IMG/VR virus record: IMGVR_UViG_3300025705_000012
Span: 1-30,776 of that record
Length of the DNA: 30,776 bases
Direction: 5' to 3' (one strand)
Source: a virus
The notes under the pieces were generated by a model. It did not search any database. It was given only the letters and a program-made list of their open reading frames with translations, and was not told the DNA's origin. Every line of letters starts with the position of its first letter. Position 1 is the stretch's first letter. A program made the translations under genes and the position numbers. Positions 1,155-19,610 of this stretch are shown piece after piece.

Positions 1155-3026
1155 TTACAAACTTGCTGTTTTAACAATGTCTCTTTCCAAACTTTGTTTT
1201 GTTGTTACGTCTTTACTTACTACAAACGCCTTTATTGGTTTCTTATCTTGCTCTCCTATAACTCCTGCCAATTGGTTTGCATCGCTACTTCCTACTAAAT
1301 TAAATCTTGGTGGCTGAGGTGGTGCCGCAGGTTGTCCTGTCGCTCCTGTTGCTGCTGCTCCTTTTCCTTTGGGTGTCTTAACTGCTGTAATCTTTTTTAC
1401 CTGAGCAATACCACTTACAATTGCTGCTCCTGCCGCAACTGCACCCAATGCAGGACCAATTACAGGAATACCTGACATAGACTTGTAAGAATCTGTTGCC
1501 GATTGGTATGTGCTTATCGTAGTTGCTGCAATAGCCGCTGCTTTACCTGCTGCTGTTTCCTCTCCTAAAATTGTACTAAGGTTTTGGAATCCTTGTGCAA
1601 TCTGCATATTCTTTTCTCTCTTGGCTGCTACCTCAGCATCATCTATTTCCTTGTCTGTTTTCGCTTTGTCTCTTGCTACCTCTGCACTCTTTTGGGCATA
1701 AGCAATGTCTGCATCTGTTTTTGCCTGAGTACCTGCCTTAGCATTATCAGCTGCATTTTTAAGACGTTCTAATTCTAACCTATTCTCCTCATCGTTTATC
1801 TCCTTTAAAGCATTTAGCCTTTCAACTTCATTTTCAATTCCCTCTGCTGCTATTCTTTTGCTTTCAGCCGCAATTTGATTTTTACTTTCTGCTAACTGCT
1901 GAACCATATCGTTCTGCTCTTTCAACAAAGAGTTTTCGTTTGTAAGTTGCTCAGACCTGAATCCTGCAACCTTAGCATCAATAGCAATTATTTCTGTATT
2001 TAAAGCAAACCTCTCATTTATAATTTCATTTGTTTCTCCTTCTATTTTTGCTCGTTCGTTAAGTGCGTCTAACTGTGCCTGTATTGCTGTTTTTTCTGCA
2101 TCGCTTTGTTGTTTAAGAACTTCGCCTAATTGCTTATTTGCTGCTATCCTGTCCTCAATGCTTTTGCTTTCGTCATCTCTTATTTGCCTCTGAGTTTCTG
2201 CCGCAAGGTCATATTTCTCAACCAACCTTTGTTGCTCTAAAGCTAATAATTCAAAGTTCTTTTTTAAAGCTGTTAGTTTTTTAGAATCTTCTAATACTGT
2301 GTCTAAGTTTATATTCTTAATCGTGTCTGCTGTTGCCTGTGCCACGTTAGTTGCAAGAGTTCCTACTTCGGTAACTGCCTCTACAAAATTAGTCGCTATA
2401 TCTGTACCTGCTTGTTTTATGTTTTCGCCTGTTTCGGTTAGTTTGGTTTCTAAATCCTCAATATCTCCTTCAAGTCTTTTAATGGTCTCAGGGTCCTTAC
2501 CGCCTAAGAAACTATTTTCCCAAGCCAACTGTGCCTTCTTGACTCCTAAGGCCATTCCCTGAATAGCACCTACAACCAAGTTAATGGATAGCATCAAGGC
2601 CCCTCCTAATACCTTCTGCAACGCATCAAAGCCTCCTGTACTTTCGCTTGTACTTTTGAATACGTCAATTAGAACATCGGTAATCTGTTTAAAGATAATA
2701 GCTACTGCATTGAACGCTGTTTCAACTGCATCTGCAACCTCTTGATTTTTCATCAGGGCCTCACTCAGTTTTTCAAAGAGTTTCATTACGATACCAATAC
2801 CTGCTGCCTTCATAGCAAGTCCTATTCCTTTGACTCCCTTACCTAATACCTGAGTAGCTTTAGCCGCCTTGTTAGTTGCCTCCTCTTGTTGCTTGGCTTG
2901 TTTTATCGCAGCGTCTCCTTGCTCTTTCTGTTGCTTTTGTAAGTCTTCTATCTGCTTAGTTAAATCTTCAACGCCTTTGACAGCTTTTCCTACCTGAGCC
3001 TCAATTGTAATTGTTTCCTTTATCAT
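1155..3026 (-). CDS. Tape measure protein
   Basis: A 623-residue protein rich in Ala, Lys, Glu and Gln. It has an N-terminal coiled coil (residues 10-55), hydrophobic helices at about 68-90 and 130-165, a long coiled-coil centre (about 185-460), and a Gly/Ala hydrophobic segment near 515-545 (IPVIGPALGAVAAGAAIVSG). A Gly/Pro-rich C-terminal tail follows. Length, composition and position after the tail genes fit a siphovirus tape measure, which sets tail length; at about 0.15 nm per residue this predicts a tail near 90 nm. Its ATG overlaps the TGA of the 48-residue gene upstream (ATGA). The order is unusual: it lies downstream of the large tail-tip protein. Confidence 0.88.
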   Translation of the reverse strand: MIKETITIEAQVGKAVKGVEDLTKQIEDLQKQQKEQGDAAIKQAKQQEEATNKAAKATQVLGKGVKGIGLAMKAAGIGIVMKLFEKLSEALMKNQEVADAVETAFNAVAIIFKQITDVLIDVFKSTSESTGGFDALQKVLGGALMLSINLVVGAIQGMALGVKKAQLAWENSFLGGKDPETIKRLEGDIEDLETKLTETGENIKQAGTDIATNFVEAVTEVGTLATNVAQATADTIKNINLDTVLEDSKKLTALKKNFELLALEQQRLVEKYDLAAETQRQIRDDESKSIEDRIAANKQLGEVLKQQSDAEKTAIQAQLDALNERAKIEGETNEIINERFALNTEIIAIDAKVAGFRSEQLTNENSLLKEQNDMVQQLAESKNQIAAESKRIAAEGIENEVERLNALKEINDEENRLELERLKNAADNAKAGTQAKTDADIAYAQKSAEVARDKAKTDKEIDDAEVAAKREKNMQIAQGFQNLSTILGEETAAGKAAAIAATTISTYQSATDSYKSMSGIPVIGPALGAVAAGAAIVSGIAQVKKITAVKTPKGKGAAATGATGQPAAPPQPPRFNLVGSSDANQLAGVIGEQDKKPIKAFVVSKDVTTKQSLERDIVKTASL

Positions 3027-3169
3027 TGCTTTTCTTTTAAGGTGGTTTTAAGAGCGTTTACCAACTCTTTTGTATTTTCAGGTAGTTTGTATTTACCTTG
3101 TGCTATTTGTATCAACTCTGTTGCGTTTTTGTGTTCAAACTGCAAACAATCTAAAATGTTCTGTATCAT
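3023..3169 (-). CDS. 48-residue tail-module protein
   Basis: A 48-codon ORF (MIQNILDCLQFEHKN...TLKEKQ) fills the gap between the 870-residue tail protein and the tape measure gene. It is joined to both by ATGA overlaps (3166-3169 and 3023-3026), strong evidence that it is translated. The sequence is mostly helical and soluble. I recognise no family. A small chaperone or accessory factor for the tape measure is possible by position only. Confidence 0.7.
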   Translation of the reverse strand: MIQNILDCLQFEHKNATELIQIAQGKYKLPENTKELVNALKTTLKEKQ

Positions 3170-9121: not shown

Positions 9122-10279
9122 TTATCTGACTGCGTAGGTTCCGTAATTCGGCCTGCTTAATTTATTTACAATACTGTATCTGAGTGCGTCTAAACTGTGG
9201 TTAAATAGATCAATTGGCTTATTGGTTAGGTTTCCGTTTTTATCCTCTACATATTTGTAGTTTCTCAGCTCCTTAATCGTGTTTACGCTATCCTCAGTTA
9301 CATAAAGGTTATGCCTCCTGACCATATCAATACCAATGTTTATAGCACCCTTAAAAGTCTTTTTAATATTCCAACCCATTCTGTAAATCTCCTCTATACT
9401 TTTTGGCTCGGCACTATCTGCCCATATTTCATCTCTCCTATCTAATCCTAACCTTTCAAGCTGTCTTGCAATATCTTGGTTTGTCATTCCTGTCCTGTAA
9501 AGCAACTCTCTAACATACATATTATTTCCTTCTACGTAAGTCTCAACAACTGCTGTGCTGTCATTACTGAATCCAAAATCCAATCCCCTTCCTAATAGTT
9601 TGGCTGATGCAGGTATCTTGTTAATTGTTTTAAAGCTGTAAACTAAAGACCTGCTTTGTCCTCTCTCTCCTAATCCATATACCCTCCAATAATTCTCGTC
9701 TGTGTCTCTTAGCCTCTCAATCTCATCTATAAGCGTCTGAGGTAGAAATGGATTGTCCTTATATGATGTTTGGTAAAATTCAACGTCTTCTCTTGTCAGG
9801 ACCTTGTCATATATCCAATGGAACTCCTCCGAAGGATTAAAATCTAATATTATGTTGTCAATGGTTCTAAATATAAGCTGCTGAAAGTCTTCGTAATTTA
9901 ATTCGTTGCACTCGTTTATGAATAGCAAGTCTCTTTTACGTCCCCTAATCTTTTGTGGCTGATCTAATGATATAAATTCAATCCTGTTTCCGTTTATGAA
10001 ATATTCATTTGTGGACTTGGAATGTAGTTCCTCGAAATATAAATCATATTCTTTAAGGATCTCAAAAAAGTCTCTCATAACTGTACCACGTACAGCAGGG
10101 AATGTTTTCCTACAAATGGTTACTGTCTTTCCTGTGTTTGCATTACAGTAATTGAAAATAAGCCATAAGAGAATGTTATATGTTTTTCCTGACCTCGTAC
10201 CACCTTGCTCTACTAATATCTTCTTAGAAAGGTTGTTTAGGTGTTCAAAGACAATATTACTCTGTATCTTCTTCCTCAT
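9122..10279 (-). CDS. terL: Terminase large subunit (PBSX type)
   Basis: A 385-residue DNA packaging motor. The N-terminal ATPase has Walker A GGTRSGKT at 26-33 and Walker B LLFINE at 118-123, with Glu123 as catalytic acid. The nuclease domain shows Asp234 (GLDFGFSND), Asp288 (WADSAEPKSI) and Asp364 (HSLDALRYS), the expected RNase H-like metal residues. It overlaps the small subunit gene by 23 bases. It is the last gene of the unit that carries the base-modification genes and is far from portal and capsid genes on this map, an uncommon split. Confidence 0.95.
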   Translation of the reverse strand: MRKKIQSNIVFEHLNNLSKKILVEQGGTRSGKTYNILLWLIFNYCNANTGKTVTICRKTFPAVRGTVMRDFFEILKEYDLYFEELHSKSTNEYFINGNRIEFISLDQPQKIRGRKRDLLFINECNELNYEDFQQLIFRTIDNIILDFNPSEEFHWIYDKVLTREDVEFYQTSYKDNPFLPQTLIDEIERLRDTDENYWRVYGLGERGQSRSLVYSFKTINKIPASAKLLGRGLDFGFSNDSTAVVETYVEGNNMYVRELLYRTGMTNQDIARQLERLGLDRRDEIWADSAEPKSIEEIYRMGWNIKKTFKGAINIGIDMVRRHNLYVTEDSVNTIKELRNYKYVEDKNGNLTNKPIDLFNHSLDALRYSIVNKLSRPNYGTYAVR

Positions 10280-10613
10280 TCTTTAATATCTCAACTTCAA
10301 ATAATCTTGTTCCTTCTAATCCTGTAATCTCTTGTCTCTCTACGTAGCCTCGTTTCTTGCCTTTAGTCTTTAGGTAGAAAATTGTAGCTGCTGTACTGCC
10401 TTCTCCTATCTGACTGTGTAACTGAGTTTCTGCAAAGTCCAATGCTATATCTTGTATTTGATTAACCTCTTTTGCAAATTCCTTATCCTCTTTGAGCCAA
10501 TCATAAAATGTGGTCCTACCTATTCCAACTTTCTTACAGGCTGTTGTAACGATCCCTAAGGATTTTTCCAATGCGGCTATCATTGCTTTTTTATGGTGTT
10601 CGGTTTTGTTCAT
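10257..10613 (-). CDS. terS: Terminase small subunit
   Basis: A 118-residue protein with an N-terminal helix-turn-helix (SLGIVTTACKKVGIGRTTFYDWL, about residues 18-40), a charged central helix, and a C-terminal part ending in acidic residues. This layout fits DNA-recognising small terminase subunits that begin with a transposase-like HTH. It overlaps the kinase gene upstream (ATGA at 10610-10613) and terL downstream, so packaging genes are translated together with the last modification gene. Confidence 0.88.
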   Translation of the reverse strand: MNKTEHHKKAMIAALEKSLGIVTTACKKVGIGRTTFYDWLKEDKEFAKEVNQIQDIALDFAETQLHSQIGEGSTAATIFYLKTKGKKRGYVERQEITGLEGTRLFEVEILKNEEEDTE

Positions 10614-11122
10614 TTGTTTATGAGTTTTATAATGTGATTGAATAGGTTCTCAGAGTCTTGCTCTGTGTTGTTGTCAAGTACTGTTACCTGATTTTTTTTT
10701 AGAATGTTATTTATCTTAGTTTGTTTAGCTTTCTTAAATCTGTCTGTTTGATTGTCGGCCCTAAGTTTGTGTCTTTGAACTATCGTTTCCTCGTTTGTAT
10801 TCAGAACTATTATTTCACAATCGTATTTATCAAATAAACTTTGGTTGAATAGTCTGTCTCCTTCAAACACAAATCTTGCCTCAGGTAACTTATTTATCAA
10901 TTTAAAAAAGTGAGGTTGGACCGCCATACTTAGTTTGTCTGTTCCGCAAAAGACTGAGTCATCATATATCCCTATGAAGTATAAATTCTTTTCCTTATCG
11001 TACAGGCCTCTTATCAATCCGTATTTAAAAGTTTTTAAGGATTTGTATTCCTTTATTACTTTCTTCATCAGGGTTGATTTTCCACTTGCAGGTACTCCTC
11101 CTATTGCTATTATTTCAGCCAT
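10610..11122 (-). CDS. 5-hydroxymethyluracil DNA kinase-like P-loop kinase
   Basis: A 170-residue P-loop kinase. Walker A is GGVPASGKST (residues 8-17). The segment FCGTDKLSMAVQP (58-70) and FEGDRLF (86-92) match the pattern of phage kinases that phosphorylate 5-hydroxymethyluracil in DNA during thymidine hypermodification, where a GTD-x-LSM motif is characteristic. It overlaps the amino acid:DNA transferase gene by 13 bases, as expected for consecutive pathway enzymes. Predicted reaction: ATP plus hmU in DNA to phosphomethyl-uracil in DNA. A general nucleotide kinase is less likely given the motif and neighbours. Confidence 0.82.
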   Translation of the reverse strand: MAEIIAIGGVPASGKSTLMKKVIKEYKSLKTFKYGLIRGLYDKEKNLYFIGIYDDSVFCGTDKLSMAVQPHFFKLINKLPEARFVFEGDRLFNQSLFDKYDCEIIVLNTNEETIVQRHKLRADNQTDRFKKAKQTKINNILKKNQVTVLDNNTEQDSENLFNHIIKLINK

Positions 11123-11976
11123 CTTTTGTCGTATGTTTCATTTCTAAAGTCCCATAGCACGTCCCAATCAACTCCTGTACTAATTGCTTGTTGCATTTTT
11201 AGTATCTCGCTTTTCTGTCTGTCGATATAATAACCAACATATCTTTTACCTTTATTGTACTTCTTAAAAGCACACAGCGTTGTTTCTATGTTCCAAATGT
11301 TTGTATGCTGTATGTCTAAGGTCCCTATTTCTTCTTTAAGTTGTTTAAAGTGGTATTGTAAGTAATTTATCTGTTTTGGTGTTAATCGTTTCTTGGTTCC
11401 GTGAGTGTCAAGTTCGTTATGTCCTAAGTGATATACCAACCCATTGCGGCAACTATCGGCATTCTTTAGATCTAAATGCGTAGGCTCTAAGTCATATCCT
11501 GTAAGCACGTTTATCATCTCCAAATATATAAACATCGTAAACCTCCCAAAGTTCTTTATACCTATCAAGTCTTCATAACAGTTGTCATAAGTCATTTGCG
11601 GTGTTGGTTGTTTAAGAGATCGAAAGTAATTTTCTTGTGTTGTGTTTCCTATCAGGTTCTTATAACTCTCAAAGGTTTCTACAAATTTGTTTTGTGTTTT
11701 GACTCTTAGCCTGTCAGTCTGAAATAATGTGTTTTGCTTATTCTCATTCCACCATCTTTTAAGCCTCTCCACGTCTACATTCTCAAAATCAGGAAACTCA
11801 TTGTAAATATAATATACTGTCGTAGCTGAGTAACAAGTTCCAAATAAAAAGGCCAACCAATAACGCTGCTCAATATTCAATTCAAACCTGTCTGAAATGT
11901 ATCTTAAACAATCGTTTGATGGATCTATGTCTTTTGCCTCTGAGGATCTTATGTGATAATTTATGTAGTCCACCAT
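11110..11976 (-). CDS. Amino acid:DNA transferase-like (alpha-glutamyl/putrescinyl thymine pyrophosphorylase family)
   Basis: A 288-residue helical protein. Recognisable blocks are QRYWLAFLFGTCYSATT (37-53), GIKNFGRFTMFIYLE (139-153), LDLKNADSCRNGLVYHLG (168-185) and IETTLCAFKKY with RYVGYYIDR (230-253). These are features of the DNA-glycosylase-like family that replaces the phosphate of phosphomethyluracil in DNA with an amino acid or polyamine. It lies between a glutamine amidotransferase and the hmU kinase. The attached group cannot be read from sequence. The start at 11976 follows a TGA that closes an in-frame GNAT-like fragment. Confidence 0.8.
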   Translation of the reverse strand: MVDYINYHIRSSEAKDIDPSNDCLRYISDRFELNIEQRYWLAFLFGTCYSATTVYYIYNEFPDFENVDVERLKRWWNENKQNTLFQTDRLRVKTQNKFVETFESYKNLIGNTTQENYFRSLKQPTPQMTYDNCYEDLIGIKNFGRFTMFIYLEMINVLTGYDLEPTHLDLKNADSCRNGLVYHLGHNELDTHGTKKRLTPKQINYLQYHFKQLKEEIGTLDIQHTNIWNIETTLCAFKKYNKGKRYVGYYIDRQKSEILKMQQAISTGVDWDVLWDFRNETYDKRWLK

Positions 11977-11985
11977 ATGTTTTTC

Positions 11986-12063
11986 TCAACTCCTGCTGAG
12001 GTTTTGTGTTTGCAGCTTTTTTATAAAATCCACATCTTCAATAGTCGCTAATCTAATATTCAT
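11986..12063 (-). pseudogene. GNAT acetyltransferase N-terminal fragment (or leader peptide)
   Basis: A 25-codon ORF, MNIRLATIEDVDFIKKLQTQ then NLSRS and TGA. The IRLATIEDVDFI start is that of a GNAT acetyltransferase first strand and helix. Its ATG sits inside the last codons of the amidotransferase gene, the same overlap style as real genes here, but it stops after 25 residues. The TGA is in frame with the transferase start ten bases later. The best reading is a remnant of a deleted acetyltransferase gene whose start now couples translation to the transferase. A pure leader peptide is the alternative. Confidence 0.5.
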
Positions 12064-12664
12064 ACAACTCGTATTCTTTTAACTGAACAGGTTCAAAATC
12101 TTTATTCACTCTTTTAAATATATCTTTTGTTGATGCGAAATAAACAGCGTTGTTATGTTCTAACTTCCACAAAGGTCTGTTAGCGTTCCTGATAGCTAAA
12201 AGTTTATTAGACTCGGTTAAAATCAATCCTGCAAAACTTCCTGTGGTTTCCTTTATGAATTGTTTTATTTTTAGCTTGTCGCTCCCACACTTTTTTAGAA
12301 CTATCTCTCCATCATTGTCTGTGTTCATACATATATCGTAACGCTGTTCCATCTCCTGCTTAGTTCCCATATCCAAAATCCCATTAAAAACTAATGAGGC
12401 CTGTTCGTTGGTTATTGGCTGATTGTTTTTGTGATCCTTATAATCTCCACTTGTTGCATATCTGTTGTGGAATATAATCTTGCTTGAAAAAGGTAAATTA
12501 ACATTCTTTAAATCGTGCCTCTTTTTCGTTTGCAGTCCGTTATCAATATATGAATATCCAAAACTGTGAAGGCCTCTTATCTTGCTTTGGTAAACAATTT
12601 CCTGCAAAAGTTTTATTTTATCTTCATCAGGTTCCTCACAACTAAATCCTACAACTCCACACAT
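12053..12664 (-). CDS. Class II glutamine amidotransferase domain protein
   Basis: A 203-residue Ntn-hydrolase. It begins MCGVVGF, so Cys2 would be the nucleophile after Met removal. HNRYATSGDY (66-75) and VFNGIL (92-97) are the usual glutamine-binding and oxyanion segments, and RNANRPLW in the C-terminal part fits the glutaminase fold. There is no synthetase or sugar-isomerase domain, so the ammonia it releases must be used by a partner. Its place inside the base-modification cassette, starting on the last base of the dioxygenase gene's stop region, points to amination or amidation of the modified base. That role is inferred. Confidence 0.85.
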   Translation of the reverse strand: MCGVVGFSCEEPDEDKIKLLQEIVYQSKIRGLHSFGYSYIDNGLQTKKRHDLKNVNLPFSSKIIFHNRYATSGDYKDHKNNQPITNEQASLVFNGILDMGTKQEMEQRYDICMNTDNDGEIVLKKCGSDKLKIKQFIKETTGSFAGLILTESNKLLAIRNANRPLWKLEHNNAVYFASTKDIFKRVNKDFEPVQLKEYELYEY

Positions 12665-13566
12665 TAATTATTCAATTTATCTCCTAAAACTCTACGCTTA
12701 GCCATACTTACTTCCTCCTCTGAGGTCCCACAGCTAATCATATTTTTTCTGTAATACATAACCAAAGAAACTCTAACAGCATCTGCATCAATCTTTTGTA
12801 TTGGTGTGTTTCCGTGCCATTGGTGTACATCTACTAAAAGTAAATCGCAATTCTGAACGTCAAAAGCAATTCCCCACTTAGGTACCACAAAATACCCACC
12901 TACATACTTTCCTTTTCTCAGGGCAACTAAATTACCAAAACCGTTTTCAAAATCTCCATTATCTTTATGTACTGCTGTCTGCCAATTCTTGTTTACAGTT
13001 ACTGTTGTAAAGGCTGTGTTTTTAATAACAAACTCCTGTGAGGTCTTGTCTGCCTCATCTCGTTGCAGCTTATAATGTTCAGGCATTAGATCAGAATACA
13101 CAGTATCAACATATTTAATAATTGGGTAGGCCTCTTTAAACTTTTTAAACTGTTTTTCATTAAAGGCTGTTTGTCTGCAATATGGTGTTCTTGGTGTTCT
13201 GTCAAAGTAACCTATAATGCCGCTTGCAGCTTTGTTTTTCATCTGTGTATTGGATTTTGTTCCGTCTTTTTTTACTGCTTGTCGGCTAAAATTTCCGTCT
13301 TTGCCTATACCTCCACTACTAACTGCTCTGTTATGAGATGCTATACTTACAGCTTTTAAAGACTCAAACGCTTTTGAGGCAATGTTAGAAGGTATTGTTT
13401 TCTTCCTGAACTTAGCAATACAATTCCCTGTTTCTTCACAGTAAACATCAGCATCATAAGTTATCAAGGTTCTGTAATCTTTTTCAGACAACAACGCTCC
13501 TTTTAGCTTATTGACCTGCTCATCAGACAAGCAAGGTTTTAATTTAATTATTTTTGGATTGCTCAT
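12664..13566 (-). CDS. JBP/TET-type 2-oxoglutarate, Fe(II)-dependent thymine dioxygenase
   Basis: A 300-residue protein with the double-stranded beta-helix core in the C-terminal half. Iron ligands are His200 and Asp202 (TAVHKDNGDF) and His251 (DVHQWHGNTP), and Arg265 is a candidate 2-oxoglutarate ligand (AVRVSLVMYY). The segments GFGNLVALRKGKYVGGY and DLLLVDVHQWHGN closely resemble trypanosome J-binding protein, which oxidises thymine in DNA to 5-hydroxymethyluracil. The N-terminal 150 residues are basic and may contact DNA. It follows the ParB-like gene with a 23-base overlap. 5-Methylcytosine as substrate is possible, but the kinase and transferase downstream favour thymine. Confidence 0.85.
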   Translation of the reverse strand: MSNPKIIKLKPCLSDEQVNKLKGALLSEKDYRTLITYDADVYCEETGNCIAKFRKKTIPSNIASKAFESLKAVSIASHNRAVSSGGIGKDGNFSRQAVKKDGTKSNTQMKNKAASGIIGYFDRTPRTPYCRQTAFNEKQFKKFKEAYPIIKYVDTVYSDLMPEHYKLQRDEADKTSQEFVIKNTAFTTVTVNKNWQTAVHKDNGDFENGFGNLVALRKGKYVGGYFVVPKWGIAFDVQNCDLLLVDVHQWHGNTPIQKIDADAVRVSLVMYYRKNMISCGTSEEEVSMAKRRVLGDKLNN

Positions 13567-14137
13567 ATAATAGTTTTATACATTCATAAACAGTATCGGT
13601 TACATTGTCGGTTCCTAAATCTTCTCGCAAAGCCAATTCCCATTTCTTAAATTCAGGCTCCGTATTAATGTTTAAAAACAACTGAACCATTTTTACGTGC
13701 GAGTTTTCTAAATCATCTTCAGGAAAGTCATAAGCACCTGTGTCCTCTATTTCGCCTTCAAACTCGTCCTTTTCTTCCCACTTTGGAATATCCAATCCCC
13801 ATTCTTTCAACTCTGAGGTGTCCCACGTGTTTGCCAATACGTCCCAATCCCATTCCCCAAAACCTACATTATCCTTTACAATAAATTCATTTTGTTGATC
13901 TAAAGTCAAGTCTGTGGCTTTTAAAATCCAAACCTCTTTGAGTCCTGCTGCTTTACAGGCCTTCAATCTCATATTGCCTCCCAATACAACCATATCTTCA
14001 TTAACGACAATAGGCCTCAATTTAAGCATTTGAGGGAACTCCTTTACAGAATTTACTAATTTGTTGAATTTATAATCCCTTATCACTCTTGGGTTGTCAG
14101 GATTTGAATTTACTTTTGAGATCTTTACTAATTCCAT
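13544..14137 (-). CDS. ParB N-terminal-like domain protein
   Basis: A 197-residue protein. Its N-terminal 70 residues form a ParB/sulfiredoxin-type fold: SNPDNPRVIR (11-20), LRPIVVNEDMVVLGG (40-54) and GGNMRLKACKAAGL (53-66), the counterpart of the ParB GxxR nucleotide-binding box. No helix-turn-helix follows. The rest is acidic with Trp residues, so it is not a classical partition protein. ParB-like proteins of this short type occur beside phage DNA-modifying enzymes. Here it is the first gene of the cassette and overlaps the dioxygenase gene. A nucleotide-dependent targeting or switch role is inference. Confidence 0.8.
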   Translation of the reverse strand: MELVKISKVNSNPDNPRVIRDYKFNKLVNSVKEFPQMLKLRPIVVNEDMVVLGGNMRLKACKAAGLKEVWILKATDLTLDQQNEFIVKDNVGFGEWDWDVLANTWDTSELKEWGLDIPKWEEKDEFEGEIEDTGAYDFPEDDLENSHVKMVQLFLNINTEPEFKKWELALREDLGTDNVTDTVYECIKLLYEQSKNN

Positions 14138-14207: not shown

Positions 14208-14540
14208 TCAATACCTTTCCTGAACGATCTTGTTTAAAATCATTTGTCTCCAATCTTCTAAATACTTGCTGTACATCTTATAAATTTCATACTGATTAAC
14301 TGAGTGTATAACTGTTGAGTGGTCGCAGGACTTGCCTTTGCTCTCCATATAGTCTCTGATCCATAAATACGTTGCTCCATAGTCTTCTCTTAGAATTACG
14401 TAAAGTAAGGACCTTGCCTCAATATGGTCTCGTTTTCGAGTGTTGTCAAATATATCTAATCCTGTTACTAATTTCACTAATCCTGAAACATAATCTGCAT
14501 CTTTTAATGCTATCTCGTTTCTCTGTTCTGTTGCTGTCAT
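14208..14540 (-). CDS. Stand-alone DnaA domain IV-like DNA-binding protein
   Basis: A 110-residue protein that resembles only the C-terminal DNA-binding domain of DnaA. It shows RDHIEARSLLYVILRE (37-52), comparable to the basic loop and helix of DnaA domain IV, and CDHSTVIHSV (72-81), the counterpart of the DnaA signature RDHTTVxHA whose Asp-His-Thr contacts the DnaA box. There is no AAA+ domain. Two perfect TTATCCACA boxes occur in this genome. It could act at a phage origin, repress promoters, or compete with host DnaA. Confidence 0.82.
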   Translation of the reverse strand: MTATEQRNEIALKDADYVSGLVKLVTGLDIFDNTRKRDHIEARSLLYVILREDYGATYLWIRDYMESKGKSCDHSTVIHSVNQYEIYKMYSKYLEDWRQMILNKIVQERY

Positions 14541-19003: not shown

Positions 19004-19116
19004 ATCTTGTTTTTAATTTTTAATAAAATACCATAGACTTCCATACAAGGCAATACAATACATACTGCAAATACTATGAATAGCCAAGTCCCTACTGTTT
19101 TTAATGCGTCTTTCAT
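18988..19116 (-). CDS. 42-residue membrane protein
   Basis: The ORF from ATG 19116 to TAG 18988 has one hydrophobic segment (VGTWLFIVFAVCIVLPC, 8-24) and a basic C-terminus (KIKNKIWKTK). It has an ATGA overlap with the sigma factor gene and overlaps the next gene by 16 bases. A small single-pass protein next to a sigma factor could be a tether or anti-sigma factor, but nothing beyond position supports that. Confidence 0.58.
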   Translation of the reverse strand: MKDALKTVGTWLFIVFAVCIVLPCMEVYGILLKIKNKIWKTK

Positions 19117-19610
19117 TTTATTGTCTTTATTAAATTTTTTACTTTTCTAACTGTTCTCTTAATTGAGTGGTAACTAATTCCTGTCATCTCAGCTAATTGT
19201 AGCCTGCTGATCTTCTTTACATACACGAGTTCAAATATTTTCCTATCATACCAATACATTTTAGAAAGCCTGTCTTCCACCTCCTCGTTTATCTCTTGAA
19301 AGTCTATTTCTTCTTTGTTGGTTCTGTTGAGAAAAACATCTTCTGTATCAGGGTTTATTGTATGCTGATTTTTTTTAACATCATCTAAATAAATACTTCT
19401 TAAAACCTTAAACACAAAGTAATAATTTACTTCATCTTGATTGTACATAAGACTTCTGTCATTTTTCTGAGACCAACTATGCAGCTTAATATACATATCC
19501 TGTGTAATGTCCTCAGCTGCCTCCTGAGATGCCCCAAAGCTTTTAACAACATTAATCCAATCGGTGTGCTTTTCTGCCAATAATTCTAATACCTCTACTC
19601 TGTGTCCCAT
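19113..19610 (-). CDS. ECF-type RNA polymerase sigma factor
   Basis: A 165-residue sigma factor with only regions 2 and 4. Region 2 includes ASQEAAEDITQDMYIKLHSW (27-46), the usual core-binding segment. Region 4 is the C-terminal helix-turn-helix (KISRLQLAEMTGISYHSIKR near 133-152). It would redirect host RNA polymerase to phage promoters. Candidate targets are the three promoter modules or the late units. It lies in the replication operon with the helicase, overlapping the membrane-protein gene upstream by 16 bases. Confidence 0.85.
   Translation of the reverse strand: MGHRVEVLELLAEKHTDWINVVKSFGASQEAAEDITQDMYIKLHSWSQKNDRSLMYNQDEVNYYFVFKVLRSIYLDDVKKNQHTINPDTEDVFLNRTNKEEIDFQEINEEVEDRLSKMYWYDRKIFELVYVKKISRLQLAEMTGISYHSIKRTVRKVKNLIKTIK

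Follow-up and report, generated by a model that had tools for sequence, protein, structure and literature searches.

Phage thymidine hypermodification, as it is known, depends on a hydroxymethyl-deoxyuridine monophosphate (hydroxymethyl-dUMP) synthase and in many cases on a rebuilt nucleotide pool. A gene cassette on the minus strand of the virus record IMGVR_UViG_3300025705_000012 from IMG/VR (30,776 bases, analysed in full and hereafter called the window) raises the question of whether such bases can also be built from thymine already in DNA. It encodes, in order, a ParB-like protein, a TET/JBP dioxygenase, a class II glutamine amidotransferase (GATase), an amino acid:DNA transferase (ADDT) and a P-loop kinase, and leads directly into the small and large terminase subunits (TerS and TerL). 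The five consecutive open reading frames (ORFs) named by a first-pass annotation were all found on this strand, head to tail and tightly packed, with short overlaps or small gaps and with ends that mostly overlap. We propose that they direct a TET-started, kinase- and ADDT-dependent hypermodification of thymine after replication, which we consider probable as a pathway, the identity of the added group being a separate matter. A TET-initiated, kinase-activated and ADDT-substituted scheme is well supported by the genes present, by the conservation of their order and by homology to transferases and flavin lyases of solved structure.

Enzymes of the cassette

The dioxygenase (12664..13566, minus strand, 300 aa) belongs to the TET/JBP family of 2-oxoglutarate/Fe(II) enzymes (Pfam Tet_JBP, 4.1e-29, above the family cut-off), and the HxD...H triad and 2-oxoglutarate-binding arginine of the 2OGFeDO domain are present. 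The residues picked out from the sequence at first pass, H200, D202 and H251 for iron and R265 for 2-oxoglutarate, show no variation in an alignment of 31 sequences and at least 98% conservation across 47 relatives. The same annotation had called the enzyme “JBP-type”; membership of the TET/JBP family stood, but JBP-type and TET-type are not separable by sequence, and a profile search of solved structures reached only chains of TET2 (1.3e-3). Single-sequence searches of the PDB with the kinase and the TET returned nothing useful. Trypanosome JBP hydroxylates thymine in DNA (PMC6449724), so the TET/JBP fold is capable of this reaction, and the window TET is proposed as a thymine-to-5-hydroxymethyluracil (5hmU) hydroxylase acting on DNA. 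A very divergent TET subfamily, with HxDxGN in place of HxDxGD, occupies the TET position of otherwise similar cassettes in contigs L148 (1590-2501), L150 (2500-3339) and L152 (2719-3558), which suggests replacement of the first enzyme.

The stand-alone GATase (12053..12664, minus strand, 203 aa) is of class II (N-terminal nucleophile, Ntn) as predicted, with GATase_7 (1.1e-9) and GATase_6 (5e-8) matches above cut-off and with the N-terminal Cys2 conserved alongside R68, N94, G95 and D118 in 28 relatives. The ADDT (11110..11976, minus strand, 288 aa) is of the long form and matches Pfam ADDT (PF18724) at 2.3e-21, or 77 bits against a cut-off of 26.2, and aGPT-Pplase3 at 2.9e-7. Among solved structures its profile matches an ADDT (25qc, 1.7e-9) and a glycinyltransferase (8z2m, 1.2e-4), in agreement with the amino acid:DNA transferase-like identity given to it at first pass.

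The kinase (10610..11122, minus strand, 170 aa), a proposed 5hmU-DNA kinase and by sequence the least firmly assigned of the five proteins, gave an AlphaFold model of high predicted local distance difference test score (pLDDT 92) with a nucleotide-kinase fold and nucleotide-kinase matches in the PDB, which places it inside the kinases. Its P-loop is conserved, and the GTD and EGDR motifs do not vary among 33 relatives; the Pfam AAA_33 match (8e-6) lies just below cut-off. It had been described as like the 5hmU DNA kinases of phage ViI and its kin, and the conserved GTDKLSMA and the fold agree with a kinase of this kind, but a close tie to the ViI-group protein did not hold: hhalign gave 65% against that protein and about 97% against Ploopntkinase3 members of TET-ADDT operons. 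By these comparisons the kinase probably belongs with Ploopntkinase3, although its direct profile match to that family (PF18751) scores 14.3 bits against a cut-off of 27 bits. The family carries the label “terminase small subunit” under phrog_800 of PHROGs and also in the GenBank entries of Cr30 and Zemanar (L055 3789-4334; L178 2875-3465). A Ploopntkinase3 match of 3e-71 for the Zemanar protein makes the label look like an annotation error that recurs. We rejected a TerS identity for the window protein on its nucleotide-kinase fold and on the separate TerS gene directly downstream (10257..10613, minus strand; phrog_309 and others, head and packaging), which is followed by TerL (9122..10279, minus strand; Pfam Terminase_3, 1e-26).

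The first gene of the cassette (13544..14137, minus strand) encodes a 197-aa ParB-N-like protein (Pfam ParB_N 2.5e-4, just below cut-off; phrog_620, ParB-like, 6e-20). Nearly all relatives, and cultured actinophages too, have a gene of this kind immediately upstream of TET, and its product may load the enzymes onto DNA or direct them to their targets.

Two exchangeable modules between TET and kinase

Relatives were collected from viral contigs in three scans that used TET or kinase as bait; the counts given here and below, all among the matches listed, therefore describe the cassette family and not all phages. Across the 116 distinct records compared for gene order, the arrangement ParB-TET-module-kinase-TerS-TerL dominates, and kinase contigs with at least 3.5 kb of upstream sequence carry TET in 61 of 62 cases and ADDT, likewise, in 61 of 62. 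Marine viral contigs commonly carry the cassette. One 26-kb contig (L151, 3979-5408) has a short ADDT and a kinase with no detectable TET, PF00303 or PF00145.

Between the constant TET and kinase, two mutually exclusive modules swap with sharp borders. The first consists of GATase, usually a GNAT acetyltransferase, and long ADDT; the second of a short ADDT, in most cases accompanied by a 262-residue protein that matches the solved flavin-dependent lyases 8z2o and 8z79. GATase and short ADDT never occur together, the 262-residue protein is never found with GATase or long ADDT, and every GNAT (51/51) accompanies a GATase. Contigs L006 and L002 are 90% identical through the end of TET and 96% identical from the kinase onward, with no similarity between, and L018 and L008 repeat this pattern. 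The TET tree, in which well-supported pairs contain both module types, agrees with such swapping. Together with 8z2m, the two lyase structures are those of enzymes that we take to be of the N-alpha-glycyl-thymidine and 5-aminomethyl-deoxyuridine (5-aminomethyl-dU) pathway of Wen et al. 2024 (cited in PMC11946847).

The window carries the first module without an intact GNAT. The gap between GATase and ADDT holds a relic of 25 codons and a stop (11986..12063, minus strand; MNIRLATIEDVDFIKKLQTQNLSRS, then the stop) which the first-pass annotation had not listed. Its start lies inside the 3′ end of the GATase gene, as do those of intact GNAT genes in relatives, and it aligns with their N-termini. 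In L009 the first GNAT codons are apparently fused to ADDT, and since GNAT was thus lost by different routes in separate lineages, acetylation seems to be a step that these phages can do without and have dropped more than once. In two divergent cassettes (L153, about 2298-2905; L161, about 2469-3076) the place between GATase and ADDT is taken by another, different protein of roughly 190 residues that is GNAT-like.

We found no description in the accessible literature of the glutaminase/GNAT and flavin-lyase modules, their exclusivity, their swapping or their marine spread. Iyer et al. 2013 reportedly predicted associations of TET/JBP, kinase and transferase genes in phages; TET-linked base hypermodification is thus already a computational prediction, and the general idea is not new.

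Probable source of the hydroxymethyl base

The record lacks a terminal repeat, but its outermost genes are neighbours in related contigs G003 and G004, with a spacing that resembles that across the window's ends. It is an essentially complete, permuted phage genome, and because its end genes are adjacent in relatives, absences hold for the whole phage. No thymidylate synthase or hydroxymethylase (PF00303) was found in the record or in 43 related contigs, and neither ThyX (PF02511) nor a C5-cytosine methylase (PF00145) was found in the record, so that the absence of a thymidylate/hydroxymethylase homologue noted at first pass was borne out by profile scans. As a positive control, PF00303 was found in the Ackermannviridae-type phages Marshall and D506, which have ADDT and a guanylate-kinase-like gene. 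In the sizeable ORFs of the record, scans found a DnaB-like helicase, and no DNA polymerase or dUTPase.

With PF00303, ThyX and C5-methylase all missing from the genome, the reading that fits best is that thymine is oxidised directly in DNA, and thymine is quite likely the substrate, rather than cytosine, as judged from gene content. Of the earlier claim that 5hmU would be made directly in DNA by the dioxygenase, the absence of a nucleotide-pool hydroxymethylase has therefore stood, while the choice of thymine over 5-methylcytosine (5mC) is one that we infer.

Proposed pathway and alternatives

In the pathway that we propose, TET/JBP would hydroxylate thymine in phage DNA at its methyl group to give 5hmU, the P-loop kinase would phosphorylate the hydroxyl, and ADDT would displace the phosphate with an amine. 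In the long-ADDT version the glutaminase may supply ammonia, which would yield 5-aminomethyl-dU or a close relative; alternatively, ADDT would attach an amino acid. Acetylation of the amine by GNAT would follow in most relatives but has been lost in the window phage, and the product would shield phage DNA from nucleases. It is tempting, if doubtful at present, to see here one TET-kinase chassis with two interchangeable chemistries converging on 5-aminomethyl-dU, either by glycine transfer and flavin lyase or by glutaminase-fed direct transfer of ammonia, and with acetylation as an optional camouflage that comes and goes.

Several points weigh against this scheme. We found no precedent in the literature for direct ammonia transfer by an ADDT. 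The structure prediction for TET is poor (pLDDT 58), and D205, a plausible base-contact position, is common to the presumed thymine and the presumed cytosine TETs. PF00145 matches occur in 4 of the 43 related contigs (one of them below the family cut-off, the other 39 contigs having none), and C5-methylase-like genes sit beside TET-ADDT-kinase in L143 and L144. Finally, Methylophilales phage Melnitz (L056, 4010-8090) combines an HhaI-type C5-methylase, a TET, a 427-residue protein that has no Pfam match and a related kinase, which makes it probable that this chassis can be turned to cytosine as well. We also considered the HxDxxD position as a means of telling thymine from cytosine enzymes and rejected it, as the alignment did not separate the groups.

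One alternative is a variant compatible with the proposed pathway, in which 5hmU is made by TET and receives an amino acid such as glycine or glutamate from ADDT, the GATase amidating that amino acid or acting elsewhere instead of feeding ADDT. We rate its chances somewhat below even. The solved ADDT relative is named a glycinyltransferase and phage SP10 contains alpha-glutamylthymine (PMC5977210), both of which fit amino acid attachment; for amidation, however, a stand-alone class II GATase needs a ligase or adenylating domain, of which the cassette has none, and the GATase goes strictly with long ADDT and never with the short ADDT-lyase module.

A cytosine pathway, in which TET oxidises 5mC made by the host or by a stray phage methylase and the kinase and ADDT build on 5-hydroxymethylcytosine, appears unlikely to us. 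The characterised phage TETs act on 5mC together with a phage C5-methylase (literature cited in PMC12730594), and Melnitz and the few close relatives with C5-methylase-like genes point the same way; yet no C5-methylase was found in the window genome, in most related contigs, in cultured phages with the same gene order (Zemanar, CaiB and Cinna) or in P12024L, HTVC112P and Cr30, and the downstream enzymes match structures that we take to be those of thymidine-pathway enzymes. A role of the kinase-like and ADDT-like proteins in packaging or repair, with TET alone modifying DNA, is highly improbable: the terminase label and the adjoining terminase genes speak for it, but the kinase fold, conserved P-loop and invariant GTD and EGDR, the separate TerS and the single kinase contig in 62 without TET speak against it.

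Comparison with known systems

Hydroxymethyluracil in the DNA of phage phiW-14 first receives a pyrophosphate, for which putrescine is then substituted (PMC5977210), and in M6 and ViI a 5-hydroxymethyl-deoxyuridine DNA kinase activates the base (PMC6449724). With the thymidine hypermodification of ViI, M6, phiW-14 and SP10 the window would share the kinase activation of 5hmU in DNA and the use of ADDT/aGPT-type transferases; its ADDT gene is related to those of such phages, and its kinase gene weakly related to their kinase-like genes. It differs in its first step, since hydroxymethyl-dUMP is made there by a thymidylate-synthase homologue whose place is taken here by TET/JBP, PF00303 and ThyX being absent. 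In kinetoplastid base J synthesis (JBP1/2 and a glucosyltransferase), thymine is hydroxylated in DNA by a TET/JBP enzyme, as predicted here, but the window cassette has no glucosyltransferase, and the hydroxyl would apparently be phosphorylated and substituted. The cultured Nonlabens phage P12024L (L053, 6004-8269) has a TET beside a TET-associated glycosyltransferase (TAGT) and an N6/N4 methylase, with no C5-methylase in its whole genome, and is a candidate for a phage base-J-like system.

Pathways of the ViI, M6, phiW-14 and SP10 type have optional tailoring enzymes, including a flavin lyase and GNAT. Burke et al. 2021 are said to have described TET-dependent cytosine hypermodification in phages, with a C5-methylase, TET and glycosyltransferases. 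Such systems likewise use a TET/JBP oxygenase on a 5-methylpyrimidine in DNA (as predicted here) and have TAGT glycosyltransferases beside TETs related to that of the window, whereas the window lacks a C5-methylase and is predicted to use kinase and amino-transfer chemistry in place of sugars. The CmoX/CmoY systems, which make 5-carboxymethylcytosine amides, include enzymes with a glutamine-hydrolysing domain proposed as an ammonia supply (PMC12783734). They are thus another phage DNA hypermodification with proposed glutamine-derived ammonia, but the handle there is a carboxyl on cytosine and the enzyme an ATP-dependent amide ligase, with no TET or kinase.

The closest cultured parallels are Mycobacterium phage Zemanar (Cooper group; ParB-TET-ADDT-Ploopntkinase3-terminase) and Gordonia phage CaiB (ParB-TET-ADDT-kinase-oxidoreductase-terminase), with the same families and order as the window. 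Both differ in lacking GATase and GNAT, and PF00303 was found in neither. The extra oxidoreductase of CaiB was considered as a flavin-lyase homologue and rejected (hhalign 3.5%). We found no literature report on the products of either operon.

Host and significance

Among named records, the portal protein of the window matches only those of Nonlabens phages P12024S and P12024L, which suggests that the host is probably a marine flavobacterium. Contigs from metagenome-assembled genomes yielded four distant TET homologues and no host assignment. Elsewhere in the window, a small protein just upstream of the cassette (14208-14540) is weakly similar to the C-terminal, DNA-binding domain of DnaA (1.8e-4) and occurs in many relatives, and another (19113-19610) weakly resembles sigma-70 regions 2 and 4, with a similar annotation in P12024L.

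As cultured Mycobacterium and Gordonia phages have a related gene order, the base could be measured now. Were the two-chemistry scheme correct, it would be, to our knowledge, the first thymine-oxidising phage TET pathway, and would add a new amination reaction on DNA. More broadly, if thymine is the substrate, a 31-kb phage without detected polymerase would do in about 3.5 kb, by oxidising thymine already in its DNA, what other phages do through the nucleotide pool. Such a route to a large class of phage DNA armour, as yet unproven, would supply candidate thymine-specific TETs and a swappable enzyme set that adds amines to DNA; it would also explain how small phages come by complex bases, and it predicts hidden modified genomes across marine viromes.

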